Positions 43,637-49,672 of a DNA stretch of 64,000 nt are shown one piece after another. The translations under genes were made by a program, and so were the position numbers. Position 1 is the first letter of the stretch. The number at the start of each line of letters is the position of its first letter. The notes under the pieces are model-generated. The model was given only the letters and a program-made list of their open reading frames with translations. It ran no database searches and had not been told where the DNA came from. Source of the DNA: a bacterium (lineage in GTDB: Bacteria > Desulfobacterota_D > UBA1144); assembly GCA_018654605.1 (NCBI GenBank), contig JABILG010000019.1:1-64000 (forward strand), written 5' to 3'.

Positions 43637-46393
43637 GTGAAGAATATAACCATTAAAGGCATTAGGCAGAATAATTTAAAAAATATCGATGTAGAAATTC
43701 CACGTGGTTCAATAACAGTACTTACGGGCGTTAGTGGATCTGGAAAATCAACTTTAGCCTTTGATACAATTTTTGCAGAAGGTCAAAGAAAATATTTAGA
43801 ATCACTCTCAAATTATGCTAGACAGTTTATAGATAAATTTGAAAAACCTGACTTAGATTTTATATCTGGATTGTCGCCAACAATCTCAGTAGATCAAAAG
43901 ACATTTATGAGGAACCCTAGGTCTACCGTAGCCACCATAACAGAGATATATGATTTTTTAAGATTGCTATATGCAAGAGTTGGTGAAGTTAAATGTTATA
44001 AATGTGGATCCTTAATAGATGCAACTTCTTTAGATTCTATTGTTTCTATTGTAAATCGTGATTTCGCAGCCAAAGATATAGAAATTTACTTTCCTATAGC
44101 CTTAGGCAAGAAGGGAGAGTTCAAAAAAGAGATTTCTGATGCCGCGAAACTATTTTCCAAGATTCGAATAGATGGTGAATTGTTCTCATTTTCAGAAAAG
44201 GTTGATTTAGAAAAACAGAAAAAACATACAGTAGAAGTTTATGTTGATAGTATAAAAGTAAACAAAAAGAATTCATTGAGAATTTCTGAATCAATCAAGA
44301 CGGCACTCCAGTATGGTGAAGGGTTAGTTGTTGTGGAATCAGAGAAAAAAAGAAAAATCTTTAATAGAAATATGAGTTGTTCTAATTGTAGCGCTACTTT
44401 TCCTGAGATATCCCCAAGATTTTTTTCTTATAATAGTCCCTACGGTCAGTGTTTGGAATGTGAAGGCTTGGGGTACTTTGAAATGTTTGACTTGGAATTA
44501 ATAGTTCCTGACACTTCAAAGTCAATCAAGGATGGAGCTTTAGCGCCATTTAAAGATTCAGCTTTTTATAAAAAAATTATAAATAGTTTTCTGAACCAAA
44601 ATAGTATTGATTTAAACACTCCGTTTAGTGAACTCAGCGAGAATGCTCAATCATTAATTTTTTATGGTGACAATAAAACTTTCGAAGGGATAGTTCAAAT
44701 TTTAGAAAAATGGTTTAGTTCATCACGTGCGGAAGAAATTAGAACAAACCTGTTAAAGTACAGAAAAATTGAAAAGTGCATAAATTGTAATGGCTGTAGA
44801 TTGAGAGAAGAGGCCCTTAGTGTTTTTATAAATAAAAAAAATATTTCACAAATATGCGACTTAACTATACTAGATTGTCAGAAATTCTTTAAAAAAATTA
44901 AATTTAATGGAACAGCGAAACTAATTTGGGCAAAAATTAAAAATGAAATTATTTCCCGATTGGACTTCCTTCTTAGCGTAAGCCTGGGTTATTTAACGCT
45001 CGATAGAACTGCTCCAACTCTTTCGGGAGGTGAAGCTCAAAGAATAAGGCTTGCTTCACAATTAGGAGCCAATCTTACTGGTATAACATACGTGTTAGAT
45101 GAGCCTACAATCGGATTGCATCCTAGAGATAATAAGATGTTGTTAAATTCTTTAAAATTATTAAAGGAAAGAGGGAATACTTTAGTGGTTGTTGAGCATG
45201 ACGAGGAAACTATAAGAAGCGCTGATTATATAATCGATATAGGGCCTGGCGCTGGACTGAATGGAGGCCTAGTTGTTGCCAATGGGTCCCCCATGTCTAT
45301 TGCTAAGAACAAAGCTTCGTTAACTGGACAATACCTTTCAAAAAAGAAGAAAGTTAAAATCGTTGAAAGCAAATCAAAAATAAAAAATTATCTATCAATA
45401 AAAGGGGCAGTTCTAAATAATCTAAAATCAATCGATGTAGATATTCCCATTGGAAAAATTACTTGTGTCACTGGGGTTTCGGGTTCTGGTAAAAGTACGC
45501 TGGTTGTCCAAACAATCTATGAAGCAATTTCGTCTTCAATCAATTCTAAGAATAAGGTCACACCTGATTTTCTTACTAGCATCAGTGGCGAGGAAAATTT
45601 TGATAAGATTATCAATATTAATCAGTCTCCTATAGGTAGAACATCAAGGTCTAATCCTGCAACTTATACTGGAATCTTTGGAACAATTAGAGAGGTTTTT
45701 GCCTCACTGCCAGATTCTAAGATTAAAGGATTTTCAGCAGGAAGATTTAGTTTTAATGTAAAGGAAGGAAGTTGTTCAGAGTGTTCGGGTGCTGGAAGCA
45801 TAAAAATCGAAATGAGTTTTTTGCCTGATGTTAATGTTTTGTGCGATTCATGTGAAGGGAAAAGGTTTGATTTGGAAACGCTAAGTGTGTTTTATAGAGG
45901 AAAAAATATTGCAGATGTTTTAAATATGACTTTTTCAGAAGCGAATGATTTTTTTGCCGGATTTCCTATTTTACAAAATAAAATTAATATAATTAATTCT
46001 GTAGGCCTTGGGTATCTCAAACTAGGACAAGACGCAACAACTCTCTCGGGAGGTGAAGCTCAAAGAATTAAGATTTCAAAGGAGTTGATTAAAAAGAATA
46101 CTTGTAAGACTTTTTATATTTTAGATGAACCAACTATAGGTCTACACTATGAGGATATTGACAAGCTTCTTGGGGTTGTATACCAGCTTAGGGATTCTGG
46201 AAGTACTATAGTAATCATCGAGCATAATATGGAAGTGATTAATGGCTCTGATTATATAATTGACCTTGGACCGGATGGTGGTTCAGCCGGAGGGCATTTA
46301 TCTTTTCAGGGTTTAAAAAAAGACTTTCCTTTTGTAAAGAAGTCAGAAACTGCAAAATTTTTAAGGGAGCATATTAGTCACTTAAAAAGGTGA
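43637..46393 (+). CDS. uvrA: excinuclease ABC subunit A (GTG start)
   Basis: GVSGSGKSTLAFDTIFAEGQRKYLESLSNYARQF, two ABC signatures (LSGGEAQRIRLASQLG; LSGGEAQRIKISKEL), zinc-finger Cys motifs. Confidence 0.97.
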   Translation: MKNITIKGIRQNNLKNIDVEIPRGSITVLTGVSGSGKSTLAFDTIFAEGQRKYLESLSNYARQFIDKFEKPDLDFISGLSPTISVDQKTFMRNPRSTVATITEIYDFLRLLYARVGEVKCYKCGSLIDATSLDSIVSIVNRDFAAKDIEIYFPIALGKKGEFKKEISDAAKLFSKIRIDGELFSFSEKVDLEKQKKHTVEVYVDSIKVNKKNSLRISESIKTALQYGEGLVVVESEKKRKIFNRNMSCSNCSATFPEISPRFFSYNSPYGQCLECEGLGYFEMFDLELIVPDTSKSIKDGALAPFKDSAFYKKIINSFLNQNSIDLNTPFSELSENAQSLIFYGDNKTFEGIVQILEKWFSSSRAEEIRTNLLKYRKIEKCINCNGCRLREEALSVFINKKNISQICDLTILDCQKFFKKIKFNGTAKLIWAKIKNEIISRLDFLLSVSLGYLTLDRTAPTLSGGEAQRIRLASQLGANLTGITYVLDEPTIGLHPRDNKMLLNSLKLLKERGNTLVVVEHDEETIRSADYIIDIGPGAGLNGGLVVANGSPMSIAKNKASLTGQYLSKKKKVKIVESKSKIKNYLSIKGAVLNNLKSIDVDIPIGKITCVTGVSGSGKSTLVVQTIYEAISSSINSKNKVTPDFLTSISGEENFDKIININQSPIGRTSRSNPATYTGIFGTIREVFASLPDSKIKGFSAGRFSFNVKEGSCSECSGAGSIKIEMSFLPDVNVLCDSCEGKRFDLETLSVFYRGKNIADVLNMTFSEANDFFAGFPILQNKINIINSVGLGYLKLGQDATTLSGGEAQRIKISKELIKKNTCKTFYILDEPTIGLHYEDIDKLLGVVYQLRDSGSTIVIIEHNMEVINGSDYIIDLGPDGGSAGGHLSFQGLKKDFPFVKKSETAKFLREHISHLKR

Positions 46394-46630
46394 AGTGAAT
46401 TTTGCTATTACAAAAGAAAAAACTATTAAGACAACTAGTACCTTTAACATCACATATGCGTGCGCGTGGTCAGCACCTTTTTCAGCGTTAGGCACTCTTT
46501 CAGGATAAGTCAGAACGACATGTCCCTCTTCTGCTTCTTTTGGAGCTGCTTCAGCAGCAATTTCTTCTTCCGAGCCTAAACTATCTTTAGCTTCAACCTC
46601 ATTGGTTGCTTCTTCTTTAATTTCACCCAT
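46382..46630 (-). CDS. small Glu/Ala-rich protein with C-terminal transmembrane helix, unknown function
   Basis: 82 aa; acidic N-terminal half, C-terminal VMLKVLVVLIVFSFVIAKF hydrophobic segment; ORF positioned between uvrA end and a divergent promoter. Confidence 0.55.
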   Translation of the reverse strand: MGEIKEEATNEVEAKDSLGSEEEIAAEAAPKEAEEGHVVLTYPERVPNAEKGADHAHAYVMLKVLVVLIVFSFVIAKFTSPF

Positions 46631-46671
46631 ACAAAATAATAACCTACTGAGTTGCTTATTTAAATATTATA

Positions 46672-46701
46672 TTGATTTTTATTTTATTTCAGTGCTATAA
46701 T
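46672..46701 (+). promoter_or_regulatory. sigma70-type promoter with extended -10, for the riboswitch/rhodanese transcript
   Basis: TTGATT (46672-46677), 18-bp spacer, TGC-TATAAT (46693-46701); predicted +1 about 46707, at the base of the riboswitch P1 stem. Confidence 0.75.
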
Positions 46702-46705
46702 CTAT

Positions 46706-46757
46706 ATGTCGTCATTTAACTCTAATTGCAGCGACATTAAATAATTGCTAAATAGGG
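46706..46757 (+). ncRNA. SAM-II/SAM-V-type S-adenosylmethionine riboswitch
   Basis: AUGUCG-UCAUUUAACUCUAAUUGCAG-CGACAU-UAAAUAAUUGCUAAAUAGGG; 6-bp P1; conserved AUUUAA, UUGCA and GCUAAAnAGGG; loop CUCU (46720-46723) complementary to AGGG (46754-46757), giving the expected H-type pseudoknot. Confidence 0.85.
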
Positions 46758-46816
46758 TGAAGACGTTGATCGATGTCTTTCCTCTTTGAGTTACAAAAAA
46801 TTTTTTGGAGTTTGTT

Positions 46817-46906
46817 ATGGTTAAAACATTATTTGTATTGCTTGTTAGTGAAGTAGATACATGTTGTTGTAACTTTTCAAACTTATGTTGTTGTAACTAC
46901 AAGTAG
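46817..46906 (+). CDS. polycysteine leader peptide (29 aa, MVKTLFVLLVSEVDTCCCNFSNLCCCNYK)
   Basis: ATG at 46817 with GGAG SD at 46807-46810; two in-frame TGT-TGT-TGT-AAC blocks; stop TAG 46904-46906; upstream of a sulfur-transfer gene. Below ORF-track length cutoff. Confidence 0.8.
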   Translation: MVKTLFVLLVSEVDTCCCNFSNLCCCNYK

Positions 46907-46940
46907 TACTAGTTAGTTATAAATTTAAAATTTAATTTTT

Positions 46941-46962
46941 CTGGTTTTATTAATAAGGCCAG
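46941..46962 (+). promoter_or_regulatory. hairpin immediately 5' of the rhodanese Shine-Dalgarno
   Basis: CUGGUUUUAUUAAUAAGGCCAG folds as about 9 bp (incl. two G-U) with UUAA loop; ends 2 nt before GGAGG (46965-46969). Confidence 0.45.
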
Positions 46963-46975
46963 ATGGAGGAATAAA

Positions 46976-47818
46976 ATGGCAGAATATAAGAATCCAGAAT
47001 TGTTAGTTTCAACTGACTGGGTCCTGGAAAATAAAGATAAACCAGGAATTAAGGTACTTGAATCTAACGAAGATATTCTTTTGTATGACATAGGTCATAT
47101 TGAAGGAGCAATAAAAATAGACTGGGAGACAGAGCTTCAAGATAATCTTATAAGAGACTATATAGACAAAGATAATTTTGAAAAACTTCTTTCCTCAAAG
47201 GGAATTTCACCTGAAGATACAGTTGTTTTCTATGGAGACAAAAGTAACTGGTGGGCATGTTACGCCTTTTGGACATTTAAAATCTATGGTCATGAGAAAT
47301 GTATTATAATGAATGGTGGAAGACAAAAGTGGATTGAGGAGAAAAAGCCACTGTCTAAAGACATACCTTCTCTAGAGAATACAAATTATAAAGTTACTAA
47401 TGTTAATCTTGGCATTAGAGCATTTAGGGATGAGGTCAAAGAACATAGCGCTGCTTTAGGAGCTTTAATTGACGTTCGATCACCTAAAGAATTCAGCGGT
47501 GAAATGCTTCACATGGAAGCATATCCTCAAGAAGGAGCACTTAGAGGTGGACATATTCCTAATGCTCAAAGCGTTCCTTGGGCGACTGCAGCAAATGAAG
47601 ATGGCACATTTAAATCGGCTGACGAGTTAGTTGAGATATATCAGAATGGAGCCGGACTAAAACCAGAAGATGATGTTATTGCTTATTGCAGAATAGGCGA
47701 GAGATCTTCACATACTTGGTTCGTTCTTACTTATCTGCTGGGTTACAATAGTGTTAAAAACTATGATGGCTCCTGGACCGAATGGGGCAATCTTGTCCAA
47801 GCGCCTATTGAGAAGTAG
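46976..47818 (+). CDS. thiosulfate/3-mercaptopyruvate sulfurtransferase (two-domain rhodanese, CysA2/SseA-like)
   Basis: [36 protein letters not shown], active-site [32 protein letters not shown]. Confidence 0.93.
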
Positions 47819-47829
47819 AGAGGTTTAGT

Positions 47830-48258
47830 TTGACGAAAGATAAACAAGAACTAATGGACTTTATTTTAGATCATTATGAGAACCCGAGAAACTCGGGTTC
47901 TCTTAGCGATGAAGATAAGAATAAGCATCGATGTGATATTAAACAAAATGGTGGGAATCCAGGTTGTGGCGATATAGTCACTATTTGCCTTCAGTTCGAA
48001 GATAATGTGATTACAGATTTTAAATTTGAAGGTGAAGGTTGCATTGTTAGTCAGGCAGGAACATCTATTATTTCTGAAGTTGTAATAGGGAAATCCAAAG
48101 ATGAGATTCTAGCTATGGGACCAGAGATTATTACTGATATTATTGGTGAGGAGCTAGCACTTTCTAGGCCAAAATGCTCTACTTTAGGAATCTCCACCGT
48201 TAAACTAGCCATAAGAGAGCTTGAAAAAGAAGAGACTAAGAAGCAAGCTGTAAGCTAA
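47830..48258 (+). CDS. IscU/SufU-family Fe-S cluster assembly scaffold (TTG start)
   Basis: ILDHYENPRNSGSL, GNPGCGDIV, GEGCIVSQAGTSI, RPKCSTLGISTVKLAI; three ligand Cys conserved. Confidence 0.92.
   Translation: MTKDKQELMDFILDHYENPRNSGSLSDEDKNKHRCDIKQNGGNPGCGDIVTICLQFEDNVITDFKFEGEGCIVSQAGTSIISEVVIGKSKDEILAMGPEIITDIIGEELALSRPKCSTLGISTVKLAIRELEKEETKKQAVS
47878..47902 (+). other. perfect 11-bp hairpin inside the start of the IscU/SufU CDS
   Basis: GAGAACCCGAG-AAA-CTCGGGTTCTC. Confidence 0.85.
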
Positions 48259-48322: not shown

Positions 48323-49672
48323 ATGACAAAAAAAAATGGTAAAGCAAATGGAAAAGTTAATTATGAGGCTGCTTTAAAGTACCCTTTATTTGAAGCTATC
48401 TTTAATAGAAGGTCAAGAAGATTTGGGCTAGGAATGGAACTTCCTTCTGATAGCTCTTTAGGCTATAAATCAAAAATAGATCCTGTTCCATTAACTGAAT
48501 TTCAAGAAGCAATGTTAGTTTGGGCAGGGACTGGGTTAACTGGTTTATGTCTAGCAGATTTACCGCCAGAAAATGGGATTGATTTGTTATGCCAGTGGAC
48601 AAGCAGAACTTGGCCATCAGCATGTAACAATCATGGAACAGAACTATTTTTCACTAATGATTCTGGTCTTTATTATGTTGACGTTAAACACATGTTGCCA
48701 AAAGATAAAGAGTTAGACGTCTTTTTTAGAATGAATGTAAATGATAAAATTGACAGATTGCTAGAGTTATACAAAGAAGGATTGGTCAAGCTCGAAGATG
48801 GTAGGGCAAACTTACCTGATAAAATGCCAGGACTTTTTGATTTTAATCAATGGAATACTAACAAGCCAGGAACGACAACTTTTATTCCTGTTACAGACAT
48901 AACAGAAGAGTATTTAAACTTGCTGACATTATATTGTAGCAGTTCTTATGCTTTTAATATTTGGGACGAGAAAAATAACTGTTCTTGTGGACAGGATGAA
49001 TGGATTGCTTCAGGTCGAATTAAAGAGGATGTTAAAATGTCACTTTATGACCTTGAGGTTAGGATTCTTACAGGTCTAAATGTAGAGCAGGCATTTATAT
49101 GCCAAAACATGTCTTTAGCGCTTCAAGCACTAGGCCTTGGAGGTTGGACTTTTACGGGTCTGATTCCGAGATTCACTTTGGGATCTAATCCTGAATTATT
49201 CAAAGGTCTTGGCTTTAGATTTGAACAGCCCAAATCGGGCCCTACAAGACCGGTTGGTAAAGATGGTATCTTTGAGGGGTATTGTCCACCTTATTATAAA
49301 ACAATGTCTGATGCATTTGACAAAATGGATGAGCATAAATGGGGAGCTTGGGATAGTTCAAAACCCTTTCCTTATAAAGAGCCAGATAAGCATCTAGTCA
49401 AAGCTCCAAGACCAACTGATACTACGAATGAAATTGTAAAATCTGTTGCCGAATACATTCATAATACTTATGGATCATTCCCTGCTTTTGTAGACCCAAT
49501 GTATATGAGGCTGGTATTTCAGGCGCATAATTTAGATTTAGATTTTTATGACGAATATTATCCACCAGGATCTTATACTGACCAACATATAAATACTTTT
49601 AAATATTTTCATCCGGATAAAGAGAATCCATATAAGCAGAAACCTGAGAAAAAGCAACCTTGGGACAAATAA
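48323..49672 (+). CDS. large nitroreductase-like protein of unknown function (449 aa)
   Basis: N-terminal FNRRSRRFGLGMEL (RRSxR-type), ALQALGLGGWTFTGL (flavin-domain-like); C-terminal extension unrecognised. Confidence 0.55.
   Translation: MTKKNGKANGKVNYEAALKYPLFEAIFNRRSRRFGLGMELPSDSSLGYKSKIDPVPLTEFQEAMLVWAGTGLTGLCLADLPPENGIDLLCQWTSRTWPSACNNHGTELFFTNDSGLYYVDVKHMLPKDKELDVFFRMNVNDKIDRLLELYKEGLVKLEDGRANLPDKMPGLFDFNQWNTNKPGTTTFIPVTDITEEYLNLLTLYCSSSYAFNIWDEKNNCSCGQDEWIASGRIKEDVKMSLYDLEVRILTGLNVEQAFICQNMSLALQALGLGGWTFTGLIPRFTLGSNPELFKGLGFRFEQPKSGPTRPVGKDGIFEGYCPPYYKTMSDAFDKMDEHKWGAWDSSKPFPYKEPDKHLVKAPRPTDTTNEIVKSVAEYIHNTYGSFPAFVDPMYMRLVFQAHNLDLDFYDEYYPPGSYTDQHINTFKYFHPDKENPYKQKPEKKQPWDK

Follow-up and report, generated by a model that had tools for sequence, protein, structure and literature searches.

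Organization of the locus and identity of the aptamer

The window analyzed here, a 64-kb stretch of bacterial DNA (64,000 nucleotides), carries a composite leader and a rhodanese operon on the + strand, with the following features.

46672..46701, +: sigma-70-like promoter, TTGATT-18 nt-TATAAT with TG before the -10 box, recognized from sequence
46706..46757, +: SAM-II aptamer, assigned by RF00521 match, pair counts and homologues
46706-46712/46731-46737, +: aptamer P1, AUGUCGU/GCGACAU
46720-46723/46754-46757, +: aptamer pseudoknot P2, loop CUCU with 3' AGGG
46754..46785, +: platform hairpin H1, AGGG(U)GAAGACG ... UGUCUUU(C)CUCU, with compensatory changes in 5 pairs
46759-46765/46774-46780, +: H1 core
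46754-46757/46782-46785, +: H1 extension, AGGG with CUCU, which excludes P2
46782..46810, +: alternative anti-SD helix, CUCU (46782-46785) with the uORF SD GGAG (46807-46810)
46817..46906, +: polycysteine uORF MVKTLFVLLVSEVDTCCCNFSNLCCCNYK*, 29 codons, SD-led, read from sequence and conserved in 15 leaders
46862-46870 and 46886-46894, +: Cys codon runs of the uORF (two CCC)
46891..46922, +: possible hairpin in which the final Cys/Asn/Tyr codons of the uORF (46891-46899) pair with UAGUUAUAA (46914-46922), 3' of the stop codon, from the RNAalifold consensus of 9 leaders
46941..46962, +: hairpin H2 (CUGGUUUU/AAGGCCAG), immediately before the SD of the rhodanese gene, the stem kept with both-side changes between leaders
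46965-46969, +: rhodanese SD, GGAGG
46976..47818, +: two-domain rhodanese of the thiosulfate sulfurtransferase type, CRIGERS loop (PF00581, 3.6e-31; PDB 1uar, M. tuberculosis SseA)
47830..48258, +: NifU_N/SufU-like protein, TTG start (PF01592, 7.8e-23; TIGR01994 below cut-off)
48323..49672, +: conserved-looking 449-aa protein without a known family, probably encoded last in the rhodanese operon

The 449-aa protein had no Pfam or NCBIfam match, and the 65-nt gap before it suggests that it probably belongs to the operon. The sequence-only reading had pointed to a sulfur operon atypical for SAM-II, and the rhodanese and NifU/SufU domain matches bear this out. It had named the rhodanese as the first full-length gene downstream; the first reading frame 3' of the aptamer is the SD-led polycysteine uORF.

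The promoter-like site ends 4 nt upstream of P1, and a TATAAT-like -10 box lies at a similar short distance from P1 in nearly all of the 30 leader copies described below, both in agreement with the +1 proposed earlier at the 5' base of P1. The leader contains no intrinsic terminator, and output through such a terminator was rejected for this reason. Divergent from the promoter, an acidic 82-aa protein whose C-terminus is hydrophobic is encoded at 46382-46630 on the - strand, and similar ORFs occur in L084 and L085.

The element had originally been called SAM-II/SAM-V-type, with an Rfam search named as a check. In a cmscan of positions 46600-47000, RF00521 (SAM_alpha, that is SAM-II) matched 46698-46772 (+) over its full length with 35.8 bits (E 1.3e-6), 0.2 bits under the gathering cut-off of 36 bits. 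Against the whole assembly the match reached an E value of 8e-7, and a second copy was found in the genome. The SAM-II part of the assignment is upheld, whereas SAM-V, which gave no match up to E 10 in the same region, was rejected, as was the long-loop SAM-II (RF01726), with 24.2 bits against a cut-off of 44. A scan of the whole window at gathering thresholds returned two tRNAs and no SAM-II match, because the score falls just short. RF00521 matched none of the 14 control genomes (0/14), and the core motif was absent from viral contigs. The 17-nt aptamer core occurs once in the window, and allowing 3 mismatches added a single chance-like match.

The letters, P1 and the CUCU/AGGG pairing quoted in the earlier reading are all present. 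Among 26 aligned leaders, AUUUAA, UUGCA and GCUAA are invariant (26/26) and agree with the RF00521 consensus. P1 is paired in 89.9% of alignment cells, with closing pairs that change on both sides, and P2 in 95.8%, with one-sided changes only. P1 together with the post-aptamer hairpin gave a covariation score of 0.306 versus 0.203 for shuffles (0/500), and of 0.06-0.11 when the helices were slid along the same leaders. The covariation in homologous leaders that had been sought is thus found for P1. These results indicate that the element is almost certainly a SAM-II aptamer, which would be expected to bind SAM. A score below the Rfam cut-off and a diverged loop without GGCC-type pairing would also suit an aptamer that merely resembles SAM-II and has changed its ligand, for example to SAH; but the core is retained in every aligned leader and the gene set is one of sulfur and methionine metabolism, which makes a changed ligand very improbable.

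Expression platform and polycysteine uORF

The platforms were compared in the same alignment of 26 leaders, in which three mutually exclusive helices (P2, H1 and the CUCU-SD helix) share two elements, the platform CUCU being complementary to the aptamer AGRG as well as to the SD. With its AGRG extension, H1 is paired in 96.9% of cells, compared with 58-70% when slid, and the 5 pairs changed on both sides were matched in 0/500 shuffles. The CUCU-SD helix is paired in 25/26 leaders; because it is invariant, its evidence is conservation only and not covariation. In the G008 rhodanese leader, the SD GAGG can pair with CCUC in a shifted match. In addition, the aptamer loop contains UAACUC, the complement of GAGUUA at 46788-46793.

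The pseudoknot AGGG and the gene SD are different sequences, and control must therefore run through the downstream CUCU/SD platform. The best reading of these sequences is that the riboswitch would control access to the first SD, which belongs either to a thrC-like gene or to the uORF. In folds constrained to contain the aptamer, most leaders had CUCU paired with the SD, and the SD was largely closed with and without the constraint. Since the unconstrained folds also close the SD, the predicted OFF polarity follows chiefly from SAM-II being known as an OFF switch. Folds with simulated ribosome stalls opened the rhodanese SD inconsistently, which speaks against the proposed control, and were discarded as evidence for SD release.

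The uORF sits between the aptamer and the rhodanese gene. No other short ORF led by an SD contains a CCC run in the window, and order-1 random windows (n = 100) held 0.04 such ORFs on average. Two genera (g1 and g5) have comparable polycysteine uORFs 3' of the aptamer, in 15 leaders altogether: 6 upstream of rhodanese, 6 upstream of sulfite reductase and 3 upstream of SBP56 genes. They are present in 15/15 functional aptamer copies on the sulfur-supply operons of these genera. The peptides end, for example, in SNSCCCNN*, APCCCCCN* and SSSCCCN*. The uORF SD is held at a fixed spacing, and the homologues differ by in-frame length changes, by amino-acid changes outside the Cys runs, by interchange of UGU and UGC, and in the positions of the CCC runs. 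In four orthologues, 37/47 Cys positions were kept versus 57/127 other positions. The double-CCC DNA pattern was found in only 3/14 genomes because one run varies. All of the uORF leaders are related, so their conservation represents few independent events. The Cys runs are located near the uORF stop, which is the arrangement of leader-peptide sensors (PMC1262725; PMC8632094). Taken together, the uORF very probably senses cysteine, and we are highly confident that it acts as a translated sensor, with ribosomes presumably stalling at its Cys codons.

The hairpin at 46891-46922 was set aside as a covarying element, as G008 folds in another register. The platform GUUACAA (46790-46796) is complementary to the Cys-tract UUGUAAC (46891-46897). 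The sequence GUUACAAA is typical of uORF leaders, and thrC-like leaders read GUUACAU or GUUACGU.

Given the complementarity between the platform and the Cys tract, part of the uORF conservation could be structural, as would be expected if SAM-II were the sole regulator and the uORF were an RNA element or a neutral passenger that senses no cysteine. However, the constant SD spacing argues for a translated peptide, as do lengths that vary in frame, UGU/UGC exchanges, substitutions outside the Cys runs and differently placed CCC runs, and the uORF is associated with sulfur-supply genes and absent from the thrC-like leader. We therefore regard regulation by SAM-II alone as improbable and retain the uORF as a putative cysteine sensor.

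Hairpins similar to H2 occur upstream of the rhodanese SD in uORF-less relatives (g3 and g4). H2 thus predates the uORF, and was rejected as a dedicated attenuator hairpin for this reason.

Distribution, host and regulated gene sets

The RF00521 search gave matches in 11 genomes of the family to which the window belongs, and a weak stray match in G028. A leader-specific model built from 24 RF00521-matched leaders, which matches its own sources by construction, found 30 copies in 14/14 genomes of the family examined, the informative extra finds being those in G005, G009 and G010, each upstream of a thrC-like gene. The model matched 0/44 other class members. Genera g1 and g5 carry 3-4 copies per genome, apart from their 77% complete member G004, which has 2, and the other genomes carry one each. 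Outside g1 and g5, the aptamer occurs only on the thrC-like gene.

The window's assembly is 1.02 Mb, and in the rhodanese tree the Candidatus Dadabacteria contig RBC041 falls within the clade of the window's class (support 0.998). Together with the fit to streamlined marine Dadabacteria (PMC8115339), this led us to take the host as a pelagic marine member of the candidate phylum Dadabacteria. The host is thus not one of the alphaproteobacteria that the first reading named, beside some marine bacteria, as carriers of this riboswitch family, and the element forms a small family-wide regulon that places SAM-II in an uncultivated ocean phylum.

The aptamer and uORF together head three types of operons: rhodanese-NifU/SufU, SBP56/methanethiol oxidase, and the full sulfate assimilation operon SiR-cysD-cysN-cysP-cysH downstream of the sulfite reductase leader. 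The SBP56 match to the methanethiol oxidase model is weak, at 116 bits against a cut-off of 650. In the fourth operon type, the aptamer is present and the uORF absent; a SAM-II-headed thrC paralogue (L192:6367-7890) is followed there by a ThiS/MoaD-like protein that ends in IAGGAS, and the operon adjoins a divergent MBL hydrolase-metH pair. The genome has a second thrC, and PF01053 (MetB/C/Y fold) gave only partial weak matches across the family, so the thrC-like enzyme may make homocysteine. In Wolinella, homocysteine is formed by a thiocarboxylate route with a sulfur carrier. This route is cited in PMC5764234, and by analogy the SAM-regulated enzyme may likewise work with a sulfur carrier. 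A CysM-JAMM pair was also observed at G000:C2:3000-4300.

On the sulfur-supply operons, no copy was seen with one element but not the other. Relatives without the aptamer on sulfur-supply genes also lack the uORF, and G004 and G008 have neither on SBP56. In the window's own genome, a decayed composite leader precedes SBP56 (L191; G000:C13:35665-35748), which has kept the 5' half of the aptamer and lost GCUAA of the 3' half, and its uORF, MLIISQVCSCFRLLNCFCGFNNIH, has no CC run left, indicating that both parts decayed together. This pattern suggests a SAM sensor alone on the methionine branch, and SAM and cysteine sensors together on the shared supply.

Proposed two-input control and related leaders

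The aptamer, platform hairpin, uORF and gene sets are supported by sequence and by comparison among leaders, and from these we infer AND logic. On balance, a composite two-input leader with AND-type control by SAM and cysteine is the probable reading. Transcription would start at the aptamer. With SAM bound, the loop CUCU would engage AGRG in the pseudoknot; the platform CUCU could then pair with the first SD (GGAG) and reduce initiation. In the absence of SAM, AGRG and the next seven bases would pair with GUCUUU-CUCU to form H1, and the SD would be released. In the thrC-like operon, where the first SD is that of the enzyme gene, this would give a plain SAM OFF switch. In the rhodanese, sulfate assimilation and SBP56 operons, the first SD would be that of the polycysteine uORF; when Cys-tRNA(Cys) is scarce, a ribosome slowed on the CCC codons would change the RNA (or Rho access) between the uORF and the gene so that the gene is expressed, and ample cysteine would leave it unexpressed. 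From the two steps, output would approximate low SAM AND low cysteine, which would fit operons supplying sulfur to both amino acids. More specifically, the riboswitch would gate translation of the sensory leader peptide, so that the shared sulfur-supply operons would carry a naturally occurring AND gate made of RNA and the methionine-branch operon the riboswitch alone; we offer this version tentatively, judging its chances a little short of even.

Two other arrangements of the same sensors were weighed. Output might run through Rho: termination would follow when SAM represses translation of the leader, and the Rho site would be shielded by a ribosome that stalls close to the uORF stop. The lack of an intrinsic terminator, the AU-rich untranslated stretch between uORF and gene, and folding simulations of ribosome stalls, in which the rhodanese SD was not consistently opened, are consistent with this, and Rho has been proposed for the mycobacterial cys leader peptides (PMC1262725). 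However, the conserved anti-SD/SD pair is of the kind used in translational control, and we consider Rho output unlikely. Similarly, the sensors might be additive and not hierarchical, for example if the gene SD initiates independently of the uORF, and the gene does possess a strong SD (GGAGG), located next to a hairpin older than the uORF. But the platform of the aptamer extends no further than the uORF SD, and genomes outside g1 and g5 have the aptamer only on the thrC-like gene, so additive control also seems doubtful. The composite two-input leader remains our preferred reading.

The Dadabacteria leader resembles alphaproteobacterial SAM-II (RF00521) in P1, H-type pseudoknot, core sequence and a methionine-branch target, as well as in the promoter just upstream of P1 (PMC1273637). 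In alphaproteobacteria, SAM-II targets are metY, metA, metX and hom (PMC4239095), whereas in Dadabacteria they are thrC-like/ThiS-like, sulfate assimilation, rhodanese and SBP56 genes, and the AGRG is not an SD but competes for the downstream anti-SD. In the Sinorhizobium meliloti metA leader, SAM-II is also set apart from the true start codon; there the riboswitch SD lies 74 nt before the start and works as a standby site, and the leader has a terminator (PMC9373788). In contrast, the Dadabacteria leader has no terminator, its SD is a separate one, and a polycysteine uORF intervenes.

In mycobacteria, cys operons carry short polycysteine ORFs, which were reportedly treated by Canestrari et al. 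in 2020. These ORFs are leaderless, whereas the Dadabacteria uORF has an SD and a riboswitch upstream. Common to both are a short ORF and Cys runs near the stop, ahead of cysteine or sulfur genes (PMC1262725).

Both kinds of sensors are known, and their combination is a variant and no new class. It suggests that two known sensors can make a compact RNA logic device, with one input for the branch gene and two for the shared trunk genes, in which a single leader appears to sense SAM as well as cysteine, the two end products of sulfur metabolism. For a compact genome (about 1 Mb, little spare DNA), this would mean that RNA suffices to control sulfur supply by its end products. Two regulatory elements per leader are also found in the Pelagibacter tandem SAM-II/SAM-V, where SAM is sensed twice (PMC5069961), and in the mgtA leader, which combines the uORF mgtL with an Mg-dependent RNA fold and reads Mg2+ (PMC11552253); in contrast, the Dadabacteria leader is proposed to read two different end products.
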